DNA of 64,000 nt from Acinetobacter wuhouensis (GTDB lineage: Bacteria; Pseudomonadota; Gammaproteobacteria; Pseudomonadales; Moraxellaceae): positions 186,001-250,000 of the forward strand of contig NZ_CP031716.1 in the NCBI RefSeq assembly GCF_001696605.3. Direction: 5' to 3'. Numbering within the stretch: the first letter of the stretch is position 1; the number at the start of each line of letters is the position of its first letter. A program made the translations under genes and the position numbers. Positions 5,543 to 62,048 of the stretch are shown one piece after another. The notes beneath the pieces are model-generated. The model saw only the letters and a program-made list of their open reading frames with translations. It did not search any database and was not told where the DNA came from.

Positions 5543-6907
5543 ATGATGAATCCTTTAGAACGCCGCTCGACCTTTGCTTTAAGTAGTATTTTTGCTTTAC
5601 GCATGTTGGGGTTGTTCATGATTATTCCTGTCTTTGCTGTAGCAGGGCAGTCGTATCAATATGCTACACCTGCCTTAATCGGTTTGGCTGTTGGTGTTTA
5701 TGGTTTAAGCCAAGCCATTTTGCAAATTCCATTTAGTCTTTGGGCAGACCGTTTTAGCCGTAAACCGCTGATCGTCTTTGGCTTAGTGCTATTTGCTTTA
5801 GGTGGTGCAATCGCGGCAATGTCGGAAACCATTTATGGTGTCATCATTGGTCGTGCAATTGCAGGGGCAGGGGCTGTATCCGCAGTGGTGATGGCGCTTC
5901 TCGCTGATGTCACCCGTGAAGAAAACCGAACCAAAGCCATGGCAGTCATGGGCATGAGTATTGGTTTATCTTTTACGGTTGCTTTTAGCTTAGGACCTTG
6001 GCTCACCAGTTTAGTAGGCATCTCAGGATTATTCTGGGTAACGACCATCATGGGCTTATTGGCGATTGTAAGCTTATTCCTCGTGCCGAAAACCACACGT
6101 CACCATAAGAATTTTAATCAAGGTTATCTCAACCAACTCAAGCAAGTCTTGAAAATGGGGGATCTAAATCGTCTGCATGTGTCGGTATTTTCATTGCATT
6201 TATTGCTGACTGCGATGTTTGTCTATGTCCCATCACAATTGATTAATTTTGCAGGTATTCCACTATCAAAACACGGTATTGTGTATTTGCCCTTATTAGT
6301 GATCAGTCTGTTTTTTGCATTCCCAAGTATTATTCTTGCTGAAAAATATCGCAAAATGCGCAGTATTTTCCTGACTGCGATTGCAGGAATCATTGTCGGT
6401 TTAATCATTTTAATTTTTGGTTATGAATCTAAATATATCTTATTGTTAGGATTAGGTTTATTTTTCATTGCCTTTAACGTGATGGAAGCATTATTGCCAT
6501 CTTGGTTGTCTAAAGCTGCACCGATTCAATCCAAGGCAACAGCAATGGGTGTCAATGCAAGTGCTCAATTCTTAGGTGCTTTTTTCGGTGGAACACTCGG
6601 TGGGCAATTAATTTTGCTTAATAATACAACAATGGGTTGGAGTGTTTTATCAGCAATTGCTATAATTTGGCTGCTCATTAGTTTTGGGCTGGCTCAACCA
6701 CGATATTTAACATCAATCGTGTTGCGATTACCTGAGGATAAACAAACCGATGATTGGACTTCTCAGTTATTAGCAATTCGTGGTATTGAAGAGGTCGTGG
6801 TCATGTCTGAACAGCAAGTGGCTTATATAAAGGTTGATAAACAGCAAATAGATGATGCTGGGCGACAACATTTAACGCACTTGTTCGGGAAAGAGGTAGC
6901 CATTTAA
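5543..6907 (+). CDS. yajR: YajR-type MFS transporter with C-terminal YAM-like domain
   Basis: This 454-residue major facilitator protein has twelve membrane spans over about residues 15-390. The N-terminus (ERRSTF..SSIFALRMLGLF) and the loop WADRFSRKP, the conserved MFS motif between helices 2 and 3, closely match Escherichia coli YajR. The soluble tail at about 395-454 (LLAIRGIEEVVVMSEQQ) fits the ferredoxin-like YAM domain of YajR. The exported substrate is not known. It lies 51 bases upstream of ssb on the same strand with no terminator between, so the two may be co-transcribed. Confidence 0.85.
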   Translation: MMNPLERRSTFALSSIFALRMLGLFMIIPVFAVAGQSYQYATPALIGLAVGVYGLSQAILQIPFSLWADRFSRKPLIVFGLVLFALGGAIAAMSETIYGVIIGRAIAGAGAVSAVVMALLADVTREENRTKAMAVMGMSIGLSFTVAFSLGPWLTSLVGISGLFWVTTIMGLLAIVSLFLVPKTTRHHKNFNQGYLNQLKQVLKMGDLNRLHVSVFSLHLLLTAMFVYVPSQLINFAGIPLSKHGIVYLPLLVISLFFAFPSIILAEKYRKMRSIFLTAIAGIIVGLIILIFGYESKYILLLGLGLFFIAFNVMEALLPSWLSKAAPIQSKATAMGVNASAQFLGAFFGGTLGGQLILLNNTTMGWSVLSAIAIIWLLISFGLAQPRYLTSIVLRLPEDKQTDDWTSQLLAIRGIEEVVVMSEQQVAYIKVDKQQIDDAGRQHLTHLFGKEVAI

Positions 6908-6958: not shown

Positions 6959-7534
6959 ATGCGTGGTGTAAATAAAGTTATTTTAGTTGGTACTTTAGGT
7001 CGTGATCCTGAAACTAAAACTTTCCCGAATGGGGGCTCTCTCACTCAATTTTCAATTGCAACAAGTGAATCTTGGACAGATAAAAATACGGGCGAAAGAA
7101 AAGAACAAACAGAATGGCACCGTATTGTGTTACACAACCGTTTAGGTGAAATTGCACAGCAATATCTACGTAAAGGCTCGAAAGTGTATATCGAAGGTTC
7201 TTTACGTACTCGCCAATGGACTGACCAAAATGGTCAAGAGCGTTACACCACAGAAATTCGTGGTGAACAAATGCAAATGTTAGACTCGAACCGTCAGCAA
7301 GGTGGCGAGGGTGGTGAAAACGGTGGTTATAACCAACCGCGTTTCAACAACAATAATCAAGGCAACCAAGGCGGTTATGGCAATCAGGGTGGAAACCAAG
7401 GTGGCTATGGAAATAACAACCAAGGTGGTTATGGCAATGCTGGAAACAATGTCAATCAAGGTTTCCAATCGCCTAAACCAGCGCCTGCTCCAGCGGCAGC
7501 ACCAGCAGATTTAGATGATGACCTTCCCTTTTAA
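6959..7534 (+). CDS. ssb: single-stranded DNA-binding protein
   Basis: Ssb coats single-stranded DNA in replication, repair and recombination. The 191-residue protein has an OB fold at residues 1-110 starting [19 protein letters not shown] low-complexity linker rich in Gly, Asn and Gln covers about 115-170, followed by an Ala/Pro stretch. The acidic tip DLDDDLPF binds partner proteins. The linker is built of GGYGN/NQGG repeats. ATG at 6959 has AGGAAG about 11 bases upstream. A terminator follows. Confidence 0.97.
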
Positions 7535-7594: not shown

Positions 7595-7682
7595 TTGGTT
7601 CAATTAACCAAAAGAAAAACAAGCGGTTACTCAAGATTTAGTATATAACGAATAAATAAAAATATTTTAATGGGGATAAGTC

Positions 7683-8132
7683 ATGTTGAAGCAAGCTATG
7701 GGCGTTGTACTATTGTGTGTTTCTGCCTATGCAACAGCTGAGCCGAAAACGAAGCAACAGGCACAGACACCGAAAAAATCATCACCGTGGGTGCTGATTC
7801 ATCAGGGTGAATATGGCAAAACATTGATACAACGCTTTATTGGAAATGAAGCTATTTCAGCTGAATACCCGCAAGTAAAAAGGTTTGCTTATAAATATGT
7901 TTATACCTATGGTGTACCCTCTTTGAAAATTGAACCCAAAGGTTATATTCAAGCTATACATTTAATCAATTGTGCTGAGCAGACCCGTGCTTATGAGATG
8001 AGTCAGCGCTTTAAGCCAAATGGTATTGCCATTGATCAAGATGGAACTATGCCTGTTTATTTTGAGCCGATGAATTTAGAAACTCCAGAAGACAAGGCAC
8101 TGTATCAATACATCTGTGAAGCAAAATATTAA
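7683..8132 (+). CDS. hypothetical exported protein
   Basis: I do not recognise this 149-residue protein. It starts with a clear signal peptide (MLKQAMGVVLLCVSAYATA, probable cleavage after ATA), followed by a short Lys/Gln/Pro linker. The remaining roughly 115 residues are compact and mildly basic, with two cysteines (LINCAEQT and YICEAKY) that could form a disulphide in the periplasm. The start codon is supported by GGGGATAAG just upstream. It lies alone between the ssb terminator and a convergent hairpin. Confidence 0.7.
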   Translation: MLKQAMGVVLLCVSAYATAEPKTKQQAQTPKKSSPWVLIHQGEYGKTLIQRFIGNEAISAEYPQVKRFAYKYVYTYGVPSLKIEPKGYIQAIHLINCAEQTRAYEMSQRFKPNGIAIDQDGTMPVYFEPMNLETPEDKALYQYICEAKY

Positions 8133-8198: not shown

Positions 8199-8669
8199 CT
8201 ATTTTTTGGGTTTCGCTGACACCCACATCGTGATCACCGCTCTGAACACGGTTTCATTGGCTGTATCTTTGACATCAACATTGACCAAATAATCACTGCC
8301 TTCCGACCATTGAAAATCAGCATTTACAGGCGTGGCAATCGCCACCAAATCAGTTTCTGCTTTCTTTAAATATTCCACGGTCATGCCTTTTGGAATCCAA
8401 CGATGCGATGATGGCACGGTTGCATCGGTCATGGTTCCACCTGCAAGCTCTGCCATATTACACATTGCAATCGCATGCACTGTTCCAATGTGATTCAGCA
8501 CAGCGCGGTGTTTTTTGATTTTAATTTCACAATAATTTTCTTTCAGTTGCTCAAAGACAGGCGAAATACTGTTGAAGTATGGCGCTTTAAAACAAATTAA
8601 TTTTGAAAATGTCCATTTTCCTGCGGGTTTATTTTTAAAACTGTTCCATAATTTTAGTGCTTGGCTCAT
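8199..8669 (-). CDS. DUF4442 hotdog-fold protein (thioesterase-like)
   Basis: The 156-residue protein resembles DUF4442 proteins, a hotdog-fold group related to acyl-CoA thioesterases (LNHIGTVHAIAMCNMAELAG core). I chose the ATG at 8669 over an ATG 22 codons upstream because GGAAAG sits 5 bases before it and because upstream residues would run through the palindromic operator. It is transcribed away from a TetR gene, with the shared promoter region carrying two palindromes, so it is the likely target of that repressor. A role in acyl-CoA or fatty-acid metabolism is inferred. Confidence 0.75.
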   Translation of the reverse strand: MSQALKLWNSFKNKPAGKWTFSKLICFKAPYFNSISPVFEQLKENYCEIKIKKHRAVLNHIGTVHAIAMCNMAELAGGTMTDATVPSSHRWIPKGMTVEYLKKAETDLVAIATPVNADFQWSEGSDYLVNVDVKDTANETVFRAVITMWVSAKPKK

Positions 8670-49792: not shown

Positions 49793-52700
49793 TTGAAAGA
49801 CTTGCTCGATATCATGCGCAAAAAGACGGACTCAGACGGTCATGCTCCAGTAGAGTTTGATCGCATCCGTATTGGTCTTGCGTCACCAGAAATGATTAAG
49901 TCATGGTCTCACGGTGAAGTTAAAAAGCCAGAAACCATTAACTACCGTACGTTTAAACCTGAACGTGATGGTTTATTCTGTGCCAAAATCTTTGGTCCAG
50001 TAAAAGATTACGAATGCTTGTGTGGTAAATACAAGCGTATGAAATACAAAGGCGTCATTTGTGAAAAATGTGGCGTTGAAGTAACAACTGCGAAAGTTCG
50101 TCGTGAACGTATGGGTCACATCGAATTGGCTTCTCCAGTTGCGCATATTTGGTTCTTGAAATCATTACCAAGCCGTATTGGTTTACTCCTTGATATGACT
50201 TTACGTGATATCGAACGTGTATTGTATTTCGAATCTTATGTGGTTACAGACCCTGGCATGACGCCAATGGAGAAATACCAACTTCTTAACGATGAAGAAT
50301 ACTTCACTGCTTTAGAAGAACATGGTGATGAATTCAGCGCGAAAATGGGTGCAGAAGCTGTTCAAGACTTGTTGAAAGACATCGATCTTGAAGCTGAAAT
50401 TTCTCGTTTACGTGAAGAAATTCCAAATACAACTTCAGAAACGAAGCTTAAAAAAGCATCTAAACGTTTGAAGTTGATGGAAGCGTTCAAAGAGTCGAAC
50501 AACAAACCAGAATGGATGGTGATGAATGTACTTCCTGTACTTCCACCAGATCTTCGTCCGTTAGTTCCGCTCGAAGGTGGTCGTTTTGCGACTTCTGACT
50601 TGAACGATCTTTACCGTCGTGTGATCAACCGTAACAACCGTTTAAAACGTCTTCTTGACCTTGCGGCTCCAGATATTATCGTACGTAACGAAAAACGTAT
50701 GTTACAAGAATCTGTAGATGCATTGCTTGATAACGGTCGTCGTGGTCGTGCAATTACCGGTTCGAACAAACGTCCGCTTAAATCTTTGGCAGATATGATC
50801 AAAGGTAAACAAGGTCGTTTCCGTCAAAACTTACTTGGTAAGCGTGTTGACTATTCTGGACGTTCGGTAATTACTGTAGGTCCATCATTACGTTTACATC
50901 AATGTGGTCTTCCGAAGAAAATGGCTCTTGAATTATTCAAACCATTTATCTTTGCGAAATTACAAGCATCTGGTCAAGCAACAACCATTAAAGCTGCGAA
51001 GAAAATGGTTGAGCGCGAAACGCCAGAAGTTTGGGACGTTCTAGCATCTGTAATTCGCCAACATCCAGTGATGTTGAACCGTGCACCAACACTTCACCGT
51101 TTAGGTCTTCAAGCATTTGAACCTATTCTAATTGAAGGTAAAGCGATTCGTCTTCACCCACTCGTTTGTGCTGCGTTCAACGCCGACTTCGATGGTGACC
51201 AAATGGCGGTTCACGTACCATTAACACTAGAAGCTCAGTTAGAAGCTCGTGCGTTAATGATGTCGACCAACAACATCTTGTCACCTGCGAATGGTGAGCC
51301 AATCATCGTTCCTTCTCAGGACGTTGTCTTGGGCTTGTATTACATCACACGTGATGCAATCAATGCCAAAGGTGAAGGCATGGTGTTCGCGGATACTCAC
51401 GAAGTAAACCGTGCATTGGCAACAGGTCAAGTTGATTTACACGCTCGCGTTAAAGCACGTGTACACCAAACTGTAATTGATGAAAATGGTAACCGTGAGC
51501 AACAAACCATTGTTGTAGATACAACTCCAGGTCGTTGCTTACTTTGGGAAGTTGTTCCTGAAGGTATGGATTTCCAACAAATCAACGTTGAGATGACTAA
51601 AAAGAACATCTCTAAATTGATTAACTCTTGCTACCGTAAATTAGGTTTGAAAGATACCGTTATCTTTGCTGACCAATTGATGTACTTGGGCTTCCGTCAA
51701 GCAACACGTTCAGGTGTTTCTGTTGGTATGGAAGACATGTTGATTCCACCACAAAAACAAGCAATTATCGAAAAAGCTGAAGTTGAAGTTCGTGAAATCG
51801 AACAACAATTTGAACAAGGTTTCGTAACTGCAGGTGAGCGTTATAACAAAGTTGTCGATATTTGGGCGCGTACAAACGACCAAGTAGCGAAAGCGATGAT
51901 GGATAACTTGTCATTCACAACTGTTAAAAACAAACAGGGTGAAGACGAGAAACAAAAATCATTCAACTCAATCTACATGATGTCTGACTCTGGTGCCCGT
52001 GGTTCGGCAGCTCAGATTCGTCAGCTTGCAGGTATGCGTGGTTTGATGGCGAAACCAGATGGTTCGATCATTGAAACACCAATTAAAGCAAACTTCCGTG
52101 AAGGTTTGACCGTACTTCAGTACTTCATTTCAACACATGGTGCGCGTAAAGGTTTGGCCGATACAGCACTTAAAACTGCGAACTCTGGTTACTTGACTCG
52201 TCGTCTTGTTGACGTAGCGCAAGATTTGGTTATTACTGAGCCAGATTGTGGTACTTTTGACGGTCTTGTTATGACACCGTTCATTCAAGGTGGCGATGTA
52301 ATCGAGAACTTAGGTGCTCGAGTATTAGGTCGTGTACTTGCTGAAGATGCGAAAAAACCTGGTTCAGATGATGTTATTCTTCCACGTAACACACTCATCG
52401 ACGAAAAACTTGCGAACTATTTAGAAGAGCAAGGTGTCGATGAAGTGAAAGTACGTTCAGTTGTAAACTGTGCGTCTACTTTCGGTGTATGTGCGAAATG
52501 TTATGGTCGTGACTTGGCTCGTGGTCACTTGGTGAATCCAGGTGAATCTGTCGGTGTAATGGCTGCACAATCAATTGGTGAACCTGGTACACAGTTAACC
52601 ATGCGTACATTCCACGTGGGTGGTGCTGCAAGCCGAACTTCTGCTGCTAATAGCGTTCAAGTTCGTAACAAAGGTACAGTTCGTTTCCATAACGTTAAAA

Positions 52701-53986
52701 CTGTACAACATGCTAAAGGTCACTTGGTATCTGTTTCACGTTCTGGTGAAATCGGTATTGCAGATGACATCGGTCGTGAACGTGAACGTTATAAACTTCC
52801 ATACGGTGCGTCTATCTTAATCAAAGATGGCGAAGCTGTAGAAGGCGGCGGTATTGTTGCAACTTGGGATCCGCATACACATCCATTGGTTACAGAAGTT
52901 GCTGGTAAAGCACGTTTCAGCCAAATCGCTGATGGCGTAACTGCAACATCGAAGACTGATGATGCTACTGGTATGACGACTGTAGAAATCTTACCTGTAA
53001 CAGCACGTCCTGCGTCTGGTAAAGATATGCGTCCTGCAATCGTGTTGGATACAGCAGATGGCGGTGAGCAATTCTACTTCTTGCCACAAAATACGATCGT
53101 AACTGTTCGTGATGGTGAAACAATCGGTGTCGGTGACGTTATCGGTCGTGTACCACAAGAATCTTCACGTACTCGTGATATTACCGGTGGTTTACCACGT
53201 GTAGCTGACTTATTCGAAGCGCGTAAACCGAAGGAACATGCAATTCTTGCAGAAGTTTCTGGTGTTGTTAGTTTTGGTAAAGAAACTAAAGGTAAAAACC
53301 GTTTGGTGATCACGCCTGATGATGGTTCTGAGATTTACGAAGAATTGATTCCAAAATGGCGTCAAATCAACGTGTTCGAAGGTGAGCATGTGAACCGTGG
53401 TGAAACCATTTCTGATGGTCCACAAAACCCACATGACATCTTACGTCTGAAAGGTGAAGTTGCATTAACTAACTACATCGTGAACGAAGTTCAAGACGTT
53501 TACCGTCTCCAAGGTGTAAAAATCAACGATAAACACATTGAAGTCATCGTACGTCAAATGTTGCGTAAAGTTGATATCACTGATGGCGGTGATACAAGCT
53601 TCATCAAAGGCGAACAAGTGGATTACATCCGCGTTGTGGGCGAAAACCAAGCTGTCTTGGCTCAAAACAAGTTCCCTGCGAAGTTTGAACGTCAATTGAT
53701 GGGTATCACGAAAGCATCGCTTTCTACTGACTCGTTCATCTCTGCTGCATCGTTCCAGGAAACAACACGTGTGTTAACTGAAGCTGCTGTAACAGGTAAA
53801 GAAGATGATTTACGTGGTTTGAAAGAAAACGTTGTAGTAGGTCGCTTGATCCCAGCAGGTACTGGTCTTGCATACCACTTAGAACGTCGTCGTCAAGAAG
53901 CGGAAGCTGCTGAGCATGAATTGGTGAATGACTTCTCTGAAGTTGACCAAGCATTCTCTCAAGCTTTAAATGAAGATTCTTTCTAA
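49793..53986 (+). CDS. rpoC: RNA polymerase beta' subunit
   Basis: The 1397-residue beta' subunit has the zinc motif [20 protein letters not shown] (about 70-90) and the catalytic [12 protein letters not shown]. It starts with TTG ([10 protein letters not shown]), placed by CGGAG 7 bases upstream; no in-frame ATG near the start fits the conserved N-terminus. Its terminator is at 54013-54037. Confidence 0.99.
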
Positions 53987-54002: not shown

Positions 54003-54041
54003 TGAAATGAAGAAGACGCCTTAGGGCGTCTTTTTTTGTAT
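54003..54041 (+). repeat. rpoC terminator, left copy of a 39-bp direct repeat
   Basis: The stem AAGACGCC/GGCGTCTT plus seven T forms the rpoC terminator within a 39-base segment (starting TGAAATGAAGAAGACGCC). The same 39 bases recur with one mismatch at 56317-56355. Confidence 0.9.
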
Positions 54042-54082
54042 ACTTCATTTAAAATTAAATACTTATTTTAAGTGAGGGGAAA

Positions 54083-56302
54083 ATGGAGTTAATAGAAGCA
54101 GAAGAGCTGTTTAATCAAGCATTGGAAGCAGAGAAGAATAACGAGATTGACAGAGCAATTGAATTATTGTCCCAGATTATAAAATCTTCCGATGAGCTTA
54201 AAATAATTTATGCAAAAGCACAATTTAATCGGGGACTTTTATTAAACAAGCAAAATAAATTTGCAGAAGCTGAGGAAGCTTATAAAAAGGTTTTAAGAGA
54301 AGATAATGCTAAAGTATATGTTAAAGCACAATATAGTTTAGGTTTATTATTAAGTTATTTAAAAAGATATGAAGCAGCTGAGGAAGCTTATGGAAACATA
54401 ATAAGAGAAGATAATAAGCAAATTTATGCGGGTACGCAGTTAAATTTAGGACTTTTATTAAACAAGCAAAATAAATTTGCAGAAGCTGAGGAAGCTTATA
54501 AAAAGGTTTTAAGAGAAGATAATGCTGAAGCATATGTTAAAGCACAGTTTAGATTAGGTTTATTGTTAAATTATTTAAAAAGATATGAAGCAGCTGAAGA
54601 AGCGTATAGAAAGGTTTTAAGAGAAGATAGTGCTGAAATATATGCTAAAGCACAGTTTAGTTTAGGTTTATTGTTAAATTATTTAAAAAGATATGAAGAA
54701 ACTGAGGAAGCTTATAAAAAGGTTTTAAGAGAAGATAATGCAGAAGCATATGCTAAAGCACAGTTTAAATTAGGTTTATTATTAAATTATTTAGAGCAAT
54801 TTAAAGAAGCAGAGAAAGCATTTAAAAAAGTTTTAAGAAAAGATAATCCTATAATATATGCAAGCGCTCAACTGAATTTAGGTTTTTTCTACCATAAAAA
54901 AGATCAAAGTCAATTATGTTTACAGCATCTAAGAAAAGTAAAAAGAATAGATTCTTGTTTTGCATATGCATATGCACAATATGCTCTATGGTTAAAAACT
55001 AACAATAAGATTTATTTAAAACATGTCTTGAAAACAGATGATGAAGAACAATTCTATAGTGCACAATTTCACTTAGGTGAATTGGAGTATATATCTAATA
55101 AATCTAAATTATCTCAGATATTAGATTATTGGAATAATATTTCAGAAAAGTCTGAATGGTATCCTAAGATATATTATAAAAAGCATTTAATAGAGAAAGT
55201 ATTAAGTATTAAGAGCATTGAATCTTCGGCGCTATTGGATATATTTAAAAAAGTTGATTTACTTTTAAACTCATTAGTTATTAAAAATGAAAATGAAGAT
55301 TTAATCGCGCATTACACTTCTCCTTTTGTTGCAAAATTATTGGTTGCTAAAGAGATTTGTGGATTTAAAGAAAATTCAAATATAAGGTTAAATACGATTG
55401 ATTTGATGAATGATCCAACCGAAGGAGAAATTCTAAATCATTACTTAAATATTTCATCCGATTTGATTTCAACGAATGATCAGGCATTTATGGGTTGTTT
55501 TACTTTACATCATGATTCATTAAATCAATTTCGTCTTTATGGTAAGGAAGATCAAAAAGAGGGTAGCGGATTGAGTTTGATTTTATCAAATCTATTTTTT
55601 GAGCAAGAGAATAGTTTTTCTAATATCAGACTTCAAAATACCAGTAATTCAATTTCTGAAAGTAATGGTGTTACAGAAAATGATGATTCGGAAAGTGATC
55701 TTGATATTAGCTCTATAACGGAAAGTTTGAATGAAAAAATTATTCAAAAATTGCCTTTATATCGTTGTATTTATATTGATCCAGACTCAAAGCTTATTGA
55801 AATATCACACCGAGAAGAATGGACGTTTTGTAGAGAAGCAAAAAGTTCAAAGAGTGATAAATGGGATAATTATTCAAAGGATATAAAAGAATTACGTGAT
55901 GGAGTAAGAGAAGAGTTTCAAAACTTGGAAAATTTAATACAACCTTTGTATCAAAAAATTTCTAAAAATATAAAAAAATACTTGAATGAAGCTGAACTTT
56001 TAGCCGAAATTTTATTACCACTTAGATTCCTGGTTAAACACATGGCATTCAAAGAAGAACAAGAGTGCCGTGTTGTTTATGTAACTCAATGGGATGATCA
56101 TTTTGTTCAGTATGATCAAGATAGGAATCGTTTCTATATAGATTATGGTCAAGATGTTGTTACCCATTTGAAAAAAATTTATTTAGGTCCTCATGCAGTA
56201 CATGAAAAAAATATGTTTGAGTATTTATGTGCTCATGCAAAGCAAAATAATCGAACAGAACATGAGGTGAAGATTAAAACTTCACATAATCCTTTAAGAT
56301 AA
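54083..56302 (+). CDS. TPR repeat protein with C-terminal DUF2971-like domain
   Basis: The 739-residue protein has six to seven near-identical 36-residue TPR units at about residues 39-290. A C-terminal domain from about 406 matches DUF2971: HYTS (410-413), an LNTIDLMNDPTEGEI motif, FMGCFTLHHDSLNQFRLYG, and KHMAFKEEQECRVVY with KIYLGPHA near the end. TPR arrays usually sense or bind partners, and DUF2971 proteins are uncharacterised and often sit in variable gene spots. The gene has a strong GAGGGG ribosome binding site, is AT-rich relative to its neighbours and is bounded by copies of the rpoC terminator. It could be a phage-defence or stress gene, an inference from context. An enzymatic activity, possibly ADP-ribosyltransferase-like from the HYT start, is a weak guess. 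Confidence 0.8.
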   Translation: MELIEAEELFNQALEAEKNNEIDRAIELLSQIIKSSDELKIIYAKAQFNRGLLLNKQNKFAEAEEAYKKVLREDNAKVYVKAQYSLGLLLSYLKRYEAAEEAYGNIIREDNKQIYAGTQLNLGLLLNKQNKFAEAEEAYKKVLREDNAEAYVKAQFRLGLLLNYLKRYEAAEEAYRKVLREDSAEIYAKAQFSLGLLLNYLKRYEETEEAYKKVLREDNAEAYAKAQFKLGLLLNYLEQFKEAEKAFKKVLRKDNPIIYASAQLNLGFFYHKKDQSQLCLQHLRKVKRIDSCFAYAYAQYALWLKTNNKIYLKHVLKTDDEEQFYSAQFHLGELEYISNKSKLSQILDYWNNISEKSEWYPKIYYKKHLIEKVLSIKSIESSALLDIFKKVDLLLNSLVIKNENEDLIAHYTSPFVAKLLVAKEICGFKENSNIRLNTIDLMNDPTEGEILNHYLNISSDLISTNDQAFMGCFTLHHDSLNQFRLYGKEDQKEGSGLSLILSNLFFEQENSFSNIRLQNTSNSISESNGVTENDDSESDLDISSITESLNEKIIQKLPLYRCIYIDPDSKLIEISHREEWTFCREAKSSKSDKWDNYSKDIKELRDGVREEFQNLENLIQPLYQKISKNIKKYLNEAELLAEILLPLRFLVKHMAFKEEQECRVVYVTQWDDHFVQYDQDRNRFYIDYGQDVVTHLKKIYLGPHAVHEKNMFEYLCAHAKQNNRTEHEVKIKTSHNPLR

Positions 56303-56316
56303 GTGATAAAAAATAA

Positions 56317-56355
56317 TGAAATGAAAAAGACGCCTTAGGGCGTCTTTTTTTGTAT
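56317..56355 (+). repeat. duplicated terminator, right copy of a 39-bp direct repeat
   Basis: Matches 54003-54041 in 38 of 39 bases, and serves as terminator of the TPR gene. The two copies bracket exactly the TPR-DUF2971 gene and its promoter region. Confidence 0.9.
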
Positions 56356-56727
56356 TTGGATTGAAGTAAATAAAAGACCTTATGATTGTGTAACACTGAC
56401 TACGGTCTTGCTGAAATGATTGGTTTTGCTTATTTCTGCACGATGGGTGAATTATCTTAAAAATCAATGATAGGCTTGAAAATTTTCAATTCATATTGAT
56501 TACTGAATCAAGGTAAAGATGTATGAAAAGCTTATATTTTTCAATTTTGAATACTGAAATATAGTGTCTTATTAACACGAATGTTCTTTTAATTATAAAA
56601 TTCATCTTTGATAATAAATCATTACAAATGGCTACATGAGCATGCAATTTAATTCATAAATTGGTGTTTTCATTTAATGAGTAGAACTCAAACGCATTTG
56701 TAAGTTTAGACAAAAAGGATGAATGAC
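56356..56727. other. AT-rich intergenic region
   Basis: No supported gene. It should carry the promoter for the lipoprotein gene; I could not choose one, and no long hairpin is seen. Confidence 0.4.
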
Positions 56728-57084
56728 ATGAAAAAGACAGTAATGATCATGATGTGCGCAAGCTTACCGTTAATGATGTTGACTGGTTGTGAAAACATGT
56801 CTGCAAACGACAAGCGTATCGCTTCTGCTGCACTTGGTGGTGCAGTGGGCGGTGGTGTAGGTAATCACGCGGGTAATGGTGTCGGCGCTGCAGTCGGTGC
56901 TGGTGGTGGTGCGGCTGTCGGTAGCAAGGCTAATAATGGCTCAAACCGTAATGCAACATATAGCGGTGTAGGTGCAGGTATCGGTGCTGTGCTTGGTAAA
57001 GGTATCTTCGGTGGAGATACTGGTGCCGCAATTGGTGGTGCAATTGGTGGTGGTGCTGGTTCTGCAATTGAAACTAAGAAGTAA
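56728..57084 (+). CDS. glycine-zipper lipoprotein
   Basis: The 118-residue protein has a lipoprotein signal with lipobox LMMLTGC (lipidated Cys about residue 21). Glycine-zipper repeats follow (GGAVGGGVGNHAG, GAAVGAGGGAAVG, GAAIGGAIGGGAGSA) that form membrane-inserting hairpins. I start at ATG 56728 (MKKTVMIMM) with AAGGA 8 bases upstream. It is similar to outer-membrane SlyB/Pcp-like proteins; function unknown. Confidence 0.85.
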   Translation: MKKTVMIMMCASLPLMMLTGCENMSANDKRIASAALGGAVGGGVGNHAGNGVGAAVGAGGGAAVGSKANNGSNRNATYSGVGAGIGAVLGKGIFGGDTGAAIGGAIGGGAGSAIETKK

Positions 57085-60222: not shown

Positions 60223-60539
60223 GTATTTGGTCTGAAATATTGGCTAGTTATGAGAAATATCGCTTAATTTTATTAAATATACTTTTTTATAATAATTCTA
60301 TTTATTAGAATATCTAATTAATTTTTTGATAAAAGTCTATTAAAATGATTGGTTTTATTTAAAAATAAAATCATATTAATTAAGTTGGTATTAAAACCAA
60401 CCTTAAAGCTATGATTAAAATAAATTTACTTATATAACAATTATTTAAAAATAATAATATTATTAAAACTTAAATAGATATTGCAAGATTATTAATACCT
60501 GTGTTTAATGCGATTAATAACAACGATGGGGTATTAATA
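60223..60539. other. very AT-rich region upstream of the first OmpW gene
   Basis: No gene; a long run of TTATTA/AAATAA words. It may carry regulated promoter sites for ompW, and H-NS binding is conceivable from composition. Confidence 0.4.
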
Positions 60540-61169
60540 ATGTTGAAACAAGTCGCGATTATTGCATTAATGGGAATGTCTGCTTCTGCTTCTGCTTCTG
60601 CTATGGCAGGTCAATGGCAAGTGAAAGTAGGTGGTTCTGTAATTGCACCGACTACAGATAGTGATGTTGCTGGTGTAGGTACAGTAAAAGCTGATCATGA
60701 ATTTGCATTTACGCCATCTGTTGAATATTTCTTTAATGATAATATTTCGACTGAATTGCTTTTAGCTGCACCTATTAATCATGATGTTTCTATTGATGGT
60801 GCGGACGCTGTAAAAATTAAACACTTACCACCAACAGTAACTTTTAAATATAATCTTAAAAACTCAACCCGTTTTACCCCTTATATCGGTGTAGGTGGTA
60901 CAGCATTTGTTGCTTGGGATGAAAAAACTAAAGGTGATTTAGCTGATTTAGGCGCTAAAGTTAAAGTGAAAGAAGATTTCGGTTTTGCAGGGCAAATCGG
61001 TTTTAACTTCCAACCTGCTGATGCAAAAAATTGGGGTGTATTCTTTGATGCACGTTATGCTCAGTTAAGCCCAGAAGTTAAAGTAAAAGTAGGTAAAGAC
61101 ACAATTGCTAAATTCGATCTAGACATCGACCCAATGGTTTATACTCTTGGTTATAGCTATAAATTCTAA
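60540..61169 (+). CDS. OmpW family outer-membrane protein (copy 1)
   Basis: OmpW forms a small eight-strand outer-membrane barrel. The 209-residue protein has a signal peptide (to about residue 22), GQWQVKVGGSVIAPTTD at the barrel start and the end YTLGYSYKF with a terminal Phe. I start at ATG 60540 with GATGGGG upstream. A paralog follows. Confidence 0.93.
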   Translation: MLKQVAIIALMGMSASASASAMAGQWQVKVGGSVIAPTTDSDVAGVGTVKADHEFAFTPSVEYFFNDNISTELLLAAPINHDVSIDGADAVKIKHLPPTVTFKYNLKNSTRFTPYIGVGGTAFVAWDEKTKGDLADLGAKVKVKEDFGFAGQIGFNFQPADAKNWGVFFDARYAQLSPEVKVKVGKDTIAKFDLDIDPMVYTLGYSYKF

Positions 61170-61427: not shown

Positions 61428-62048
61428 ATGTTTAAAAGATCAACAATACAAAAATCACTTTTCGTTGTTGCACTGAGTTTTTGTGCAGTTTCAACGAGTT
61501 TTGCATCGAATTGGCAATTAAAAGTCGGTGGAAGTTTATTAGCGCCTGCCAGTAATAATGGCACACTTGCTGGTGCAAAAGCCGATGTGAGCTATGAATA
61601 TAACTTAACCCCTTCTGTTGAATACTTTTTTGGTGATTCACCTTTTTCGGCAGAGCTACTTCTCGCTGTTGCACCCTTCAAGCATGACATTAAATTAGAT
61701 GGCGCTGAAGCTGCGACATTTAAGCATTTACCACCAACAATCACTGCAAAATATCATTTAAAAAATAGTACTCGCTTCACGCCATATATAGGTGTTGGGT
61801 TGACAGTTGCAGTACCTTGGGATGAGAAGTTAAGAGGAAGTAACTCAAAACTTGAAGCCGATGTGACTTATGGTGTCGCAGGGCAATTGGGCTTTAATTT
61901 CCAACCTGCTGATGCCAAGAACTGGGGCGTATTTGCAGATGTACGTTATGCGCAAGTTGAAAGCGATGTGAAACTAGATGGTAAAGACATCGGCACTTTA
62001 GAGGTGAATCCTTTGGTGTATACCTTAGGTTATAGTTACAGGTTCTAA
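61428..62048 (+). CDS. OmpW family outer-membrane protein (copy 2)
   Basis: The 206-residue protein is a clear tandem paralog of the upstream gene: shared SNWQLKVGGSLLAP start, FNFQPADAKNWGVF block and YTLGYSYRF end. It has its own signal peptide and ribosome binding site (AGAGG) and sits behind a terminator, so the two are expressed separately. Loop sequences differ, which suggests different use. Confidence 0.92.
   Translation: MFKRSTIQKSLFVVALSFCAVSTSFASNWQLKVGGSLLAPASNNGTLAGAKADVSYEYNLTPSVEYFFGDSPFSAELLLAVAPFKHDIKLDGAEAATFKHLPPTITAKYHLKNSTRFTPYIGVGLTVAVPWDEKLRGSNSKLEADVTYGVAGQLGFNFQPADAKNWGVFADVRYAQVESDVKLDGKDIGTLEVNPLVYTLGYSYRF

Follow-up and report, generated by a model that had tools for sequence, protein, structure and literature searches.

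The 3' end of rpoC is a variable slot in the genus Acinetobacter, and the gene found there in A. wuhouensis, coding for a TPR protein with a DUF2971-like C-terminal domain, is probably an exchangeable single-gene occupant that would have acquired its double terminator via recombination. The window, i.e., the whole stretch of DNA that was analysed, is 64,000 bases long and contains the following features at this locus.

49793..53986, plus strand: rpoC, RNA polymerase beta' subunit (open reading frame; named by reading, not by family search)
54003..54041, plus strand: terminator copy 1, the rpoC terminator, 39 bases (repeat comparison, folding)
54042..54082, plus strand: leader of 41 bases, 5' of the gene (read from the sequence)
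54083..56302, plus strand: gene for the TPR plus DUF2971-like protein, 739 aa, 28.2% GC (open reading frame, Pfam, model)
54209..54940, plus strand: 108-base tandem repeats coding for 36-aa TPR units (5 registers, 67-82% to reference)
55175..56299, plus strand: C-terminal DUF2971-like domain, possible ADP-ribosyltransferase-like fold (Pfam, fold comparison)
56317..56355, plus strand: terminator copy 2 (repeat comparison, folding, genome-wide stem count)
56719..57084, plus strand: gene for a YMGG-like glycine-zipper protein, the downstream anchor of the slot (PF13441)

The terminator repeat and the enclosed gene

The two terminator copies form a direct repeat with 38 of 39 bases identical, TGAAATGAA[G/A]AAGACGCCTTAGGGCGTCTTTTTTTGTAT, where G/A marks the mismatch, exactly as the initial annotation had described it. 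The sole AT-rich gene that it had placed between them was likewise confirmed: a single open reading frame of at least 80 aa (54083-56302) separates the repeats, with a GC content of 28.2% compared with 38.8% for the window and 43.0% for rpoC. The 39-base repeat match was obtained in none of 100 shuffled windows and, among the five direct-repeat families of at least 30 bases reported in the window, the terminator repeat alone exceeds 90% identity. Both copies fold into a common hairpin of 12 pairs (−17.3 and −17.2 kcal/mol), and the palindromic terminator itself (I2) is the sole inverted pair listed at the repeat borders. The 16-base stem, GACGCCTTAGGGCGTC, has two sites in the 3.96 Mb genome, both flanking this gene, which rules out a terminator that is common in the genome. 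A TATACT motif straddles the end of copy 1 and the leader and may act as promoter of the gene; the promoter scan listed none on the plus strand in the leader. Further along the window, two tandem paralogs (60501-61169 and 61428-62048), OmpW-like by eye, share an 83-base stretch that is 81% identical.

Variation behind rpoC across Acinetobacter

A search for the rpoC tail succeeded in 170 of 175 Acinetobacter genomes, giving two matches to the query in six of them (G000, G067, G068, G082, G108 and G111), and downstream DNA with an identifiable rpoC end was available for 149. A glycine-zipper homolog lies downstream of rpoC in 128 of these 149 fetched regions, and the distance from the rpoC stop to this gene ranges from 156 to 5518 bases among the 128 species. 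Thirty of the 128 intervals are shorter than 300 bases, supplying the relatives with one terminator and no gene that had been proposed as support for an insertion. For the longer intervals, open reading frames of at least 60 aa were clustered and their product labels read by eye from the sequences. The cargo comprises a periplasmic-looking protein of ~180 aa (42 open reading frames), a glycine-zipper paralog (30), an alpha/beta-hydrolase-like protein on the opposite strand (13), a permease-like protein (6), a small membrane protein (5) and the TPR gene (4, in 3 species); other cargo at the same place, which had also been anticipated, is thus present in many longer intervals. G031 and G059, close species that share the window's downstream gene order, have a single terminator with a small membrane protein gene behind it, joined in the G059 slot by a permease-like gene. 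In a phylogeny of the terminal 999 bases of rpoC, given without support values, the window groups with empty-slot species. A literature search on rpoC hotspots and excision between terminator repeats found no paper.

The rpoC terminators differ in sequence between species, ruling out that all Acinetobacter terminators look alike. Copy 1 is identical to the single rpoC terminator of G031 at 38 of 39 positions and to that of G120 at 28 of 39; the rpoC tail of the window is G120-like, but its terminator is G031-like rather than G120-like. One base is common to both window copies and missing in G031 and G059, and copy 2 therefore comes from a copy of the window's own lineage or a close one. In five genomes (G120, G065, G152, G024 and G088; loci L070, L072, L074, L077, L078 and L294-L298), the genes found behind the glycine-zipper gene of the window occupy another part of the genome, at about 110-126 kb from rpoC when on the same contig. 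This downstream rearrangement was rejected as an explanation because its break lies 3' of the glycine-zipper gene and not at the terminator. As a separate observation, L182 (G124) and L147 (G092) show an A. brisouii-group leader after rpoC followed by different sequence, and what seems to be left of the DUF2971-like gene in L182 is its final codons, as if one cargo had replaced another.

For 98 of the 128 species, the 80 bases directly behind rpoC were then checked for matches in the remainder of the interval; the other 30 intervals were too short. Against a null that reached 26, the best scores belonged to A. tianfuensis (24.5) and G111 (18.5), both among the six species with the gene or a remnant, followed by a looser match at 16.0 (L100); the window scored 36.5 in a similar direct-repeat test. 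A second terminator copy is present in 3 of 7 gene-or-remnant intervals versus 0 of 92 others (Fisher p 2.2e-4), where L182, with seemingly only its last codons left, was placed among the 92. When the terminators of all 98 species were crossed with the intervals, 80 of 9506 pairs scored at least 18.5, and 79 of them involved the A. tianfuensis or G111 intervals; once these two intervals were removed, one pair of 9312 did so (20.5). The high cross-species scores thus stem from the A. tianfuensis and G111 intervals themselves. No second copy was seen in the other four gene-or-remnant intervals (A. brisouii, MB5, G012 and G108), nor within the first 700 bases of the G154 slot. A hairpin after the gene in G156 was not counted, as the aligned downstream DNA starts beyond it; rpoC was not found in this assembly.

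In A. tianfuensis, the stem pattern occurs at two genome sites only, one on each side of the gene, and the DNA 3' of copy 2 aligns with the DNA 3' of the single terminator in G114. Similarly, the DNA 3' of copy 2 in G111 aligns with G162 and G102 past their single terminator. The outer copy therefore marks the place of the old terminator, with the gene before it. From these alignments, a position of the gene in front of the old terminator is well supported in A. tianfuensis and G111, and it is likely in the window, where no relative shows the DNA directly behind copy 2 and where, compared with G031, just the final stretch before the glycine-zipper gene aligns well (80% over 160 bases). The insertion proposed in the initial annotation thus withstands the objection that look-alike terminators merely coincide, since terminators differ between species and two other species duplicate their own. 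What stands of that model is a variable slot with two more species showing terminator, gene or remnant, and terminator; each case may, but need not, be a fresh insertion. The precise excision products that it had envisaged were not seen among the species compared. The 11 relatives compared are 89-92% identical at rpoB, so that no empty site of the same species was seen. In a direct-repeat screen of 57 family loci including the window, with a null maximum of 18, the window (36.5) and A. tianfuensis (24.5) ranked first; next came three Neisseriaceae loci (L220, L243 and L282, with scores of 22, 18 and 15) with TTCAGGCTGCCTGAA-like flanking repeats, which we take to be possible DNA uptake signals.

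Routes to the double terminator

In the reading we favour, a terminator-plus-gene unit would enter upstream of the resident terminator via homologous recombination anchored in the rpoC end, with natural transformation, a likely DNA route in Acinetobacter, as the likely means of entry. Entry would leave one terminator on either side of the gene, and the repeat would permit deletion of the gene by recombination or slippage, restoring one intact terminator. As the repeat restores an intact terminator, rpoC need not suffer read-through on gain or loss; if this is true, a lone gene devoid of a recombinase could come and go next to an essential operon and do it no harm, and the locus would offer a way into a little-studied protein family located behind core genes in several genera.

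To place this proposal, we compared it with known systems. Acinetobacter is among the species with homology-facilitated illegitimate recombination. This process is known in naturally competent bacteria and combines homology at one end, here rpoC, with joining at the other end without homology (PMC3240628). In contrast, the resident terminator recurs as a 39-base repeat at the far end of our locus, where the joining step is putative. A test for this process suggested a recombinant tract on the left, with two of eight controls positive too. Integron gene cassettes are single genes with attC hairpins and resemble our case in that a hairpin recurs on both sides of a single inserted gene; however, no integrase lies between the repeats here, and the hairpin is the transcription terminator of a host gene. 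Chromosomal hotspots hold variable genes between conserved neighbours and exchange them through homologous recombination of the flanking DNA. The rpoC slot also varies in content between conserved neighbours, although it often contains one gene, and the duplicated terminator accompanies only one gene family.

The tract was located by a maximum chi-square analysis of the rpoB-rpoC stretch (8422 bases), in which the last ~940 bases of rpoC look recombinant. Versus G120, the window breaks at base 7482 (about position 53047 of the window), ~940 bases before the rpoC stop, with G120 alleles making up 23% before and 61% after the break (scan-corrected permutation p 2e-4). The comparisons with G065 and G088 gave p values of 0.007 (base 7602) and 0.005 (base 6381), and those with G152 and G024 gave 0.11 and 0.06. 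The two controls with p below 0.05 were G081 (0.003, base 7944) and G110 (0.011, base 1370); as G081 breaks at the rpoC 3' end yet does not carry the gene, the tract may be a property of the slot rather than of the gene. In A. tianfuensis, four of eight tests gave p below 0.05, all of them with breaks in rpoB (bases 652 to 2153), and one test placed a break at 8247 with p 0.14, leaving no significant break at the rpoC end. These patterns suggest exchange at the border of the slot, without linking it to this gene in particular.

The history of the gene was followed in a midpoint-rooted tree of the C-terminal domain, which includes five slot genes (the window, A. tianfuensis, A. brisouii and fragments of MB5 and G156). 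These five form one clade, whose joining node is given without a support value, together with Acinetobacter database proteins of unplaced loci, whereas members of the family from elsewhere in Acinetobacter genomes group with those of other genera or stand apart, so that lineages seem to keep their site. This single slot clade is a point against the favoured explanation, as it would not be required of a freely moving cassette; the slot cases with one terminator and the G120-like rpoC tail next to a G031-like terminator also speak against it. Because the tested slot genes are one clade, repeated insertion has a rival in long residence combined with losses and exchange. The slot may have been colonised once, long ago, with the terminators kept alike by gene conversion and the empty slots left by later repeat-mediated losses, an account we consider possible but rather improbable. 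It would fit the clade, outside which G134, G149, G096 and A. haemolyticus fall, as well as the many Psychrobacter species that likewise keep one site for the same gene type. However, most species of the genus must then have lost the gene. The window protein is also only 45% identical to that of A. tianfuensis and 42% to that of A. brisouii, although the rpoC proteins of these species are 95-97% identical to that of the window, and the base shared by the window copies and absent in G031 and G059 would demand recent conversion.

Two further accounts concern the repeat itself, and we regard both as very improbable. Copy 2 could be the gene's own terminator, rpoC-like through convergence; similar terminators do recur in the genus, with GCCACCYTCGGGTGGC occurring away from rpoC in G013, G119, G108, G111 and G114, but the match in the window spans 39 bases, past the hairpin on both sides, and its stem is unique to the locus. 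Alternatively, a transposon or integrase could have inserted the gene and made a target duplication, in favour of which stands the clean direct repeat around a single gene. Against this, the repeats enclose no further open reading frame of at least 80 aa and no recombinase gene, the domain has no matching plasmid or phage record, and 39 bases is long for a transposon target duplication. We retain exchange through recombination anchored in the rpoC end as the probable origin of the double terminator.

The protein and its family

Pfam assigned the TPR part of the protein at 112.4 bits (TPR_1, cut-off 27.8), and the predicted structure shows helical repeats across about residues 1-350. Some homologs measure 739, 703, 667 and 631 aa, differing in steps of 36 aa, i.e., one TPR unit, in line with the 108-base tandem repeats. 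The TPR half of the earlier TPR-DUF2971 identification is thereby confirmed, but the other half is not: the C-terminal piece scored 16.6 bits against DUF2971 (PF11185), below the gathering score of 22, and a Pfam scan of the whole protein did not list DUF2971. Since four of ten relatives scanned pass this cut-off (23.6-24.5 bits), we call the domain DUF2971-like. Among the listed folds, the best structural neighbours of the C-terminal model are DarT and Tpt1/KptA, which is only suggestive; the likeness includes an invariant HY on an early strand and an E-x-E motif preceding a late one. Comparison of the domain with the DarT profile gave no similarity, the PDB contained no sequence relatives at E up to 1, and a full-length fold search retrieved mostly TPR and other helical-repeat proteins. 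The modelled domain is at most suggestive of an ADP-ribosyltransferase fold; in the whole protein, a TPR sensor is probably fused to an enzyme domain. This possible fold makes the function directly testable. A role in phage defence, as had been put forward initially, was not directly supported: the protein matched none of the PADLOC-DB 2.0.0 families at E up to 1, and few of 49 neighbour proteins of family loci match defence models. The domain matched no plasmid or phage record, and 43 pattern matches in viral contigs yielded one confirmed locus.

With the C-terminal domain profile, the family was found in 13 of the 175 genomes, whereas a whole-protein search matched 17, of which G005, G021, G029 and G148 match within the TPR part only. 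Nine of the 13 have it at the rpoC slot: the window, A. tianfuensis (G165), A. brisouii (G013) and strain MB5 (G119, split), remnants in G012, G108, G111 and G154, and G156, which was placed by its downstream genes as its contig starts inside the gene. The other four are off the slot or unplaced, namely G134, where the gene follows an S1-domain, tex-like one, G149, where its predecessor was read as glnS, G096, where it lies behind an AAA_15 ATPase gene, and A. haemolyticus (G034), where the locus is at the end of a contig. An A. johnsonii-named protein cluster has 51 member sequences, while no A. johnsonii locus occurs among the 80 listed of 92 loci from a one-genome-per-species collection, a contrast that hints at presence and absence within a species.

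The family is often located behind core genes (ligA, hrpA, smc, recB), which was the least expected pattern. Among named genomes, the rpoC location accounts for 3 of the 80 listed loci (of 92), all in Acinetobacter. In most Psychrobacter loci the gene starts 0-6 bases after ligA (e.g., L216, L219), and of 29 newly fetched loci, 23 contain a ligA end, all of them among the 24 loci of the genus coded g15, presumably Psychrobacter. Isolated cases lie behind hrpA in two genomes of Haemophilus parainfluenzae, behind smc in M. oblonga, behind recB in one Neisseriaceae assembly and behind a tex-like gene in C. valvarum. Gene and upstream neighbour share a strand in 58 of 69 loci, a count that serves as a lead only, because many loci are one inherited site.

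It is tempting to speculate, though we hold this with little confidence, that the gene is a recombinase-free cassette whose lineages each settle behind their own core nucleic-acid gene (rpoC, ligA, hrpA, smc, recB, tex-like). At rpoC, the host terminator would provide both arms, so that swaps by ordinary recombination would never leave the core operon unterminated, and the effector might serve in phage defence as an ADP-ribosyltransferase that targets nucleic acid or its machinery.

A different arrangement was observed in L211 (1712-5405) and L213, from G096 and G119, the latter as a second copy in the same setting, where an AAA_15 (OLD-like) ATPase gene lies directly 5' of the DUF2971-like gene; the pair is a possible two-gene system.
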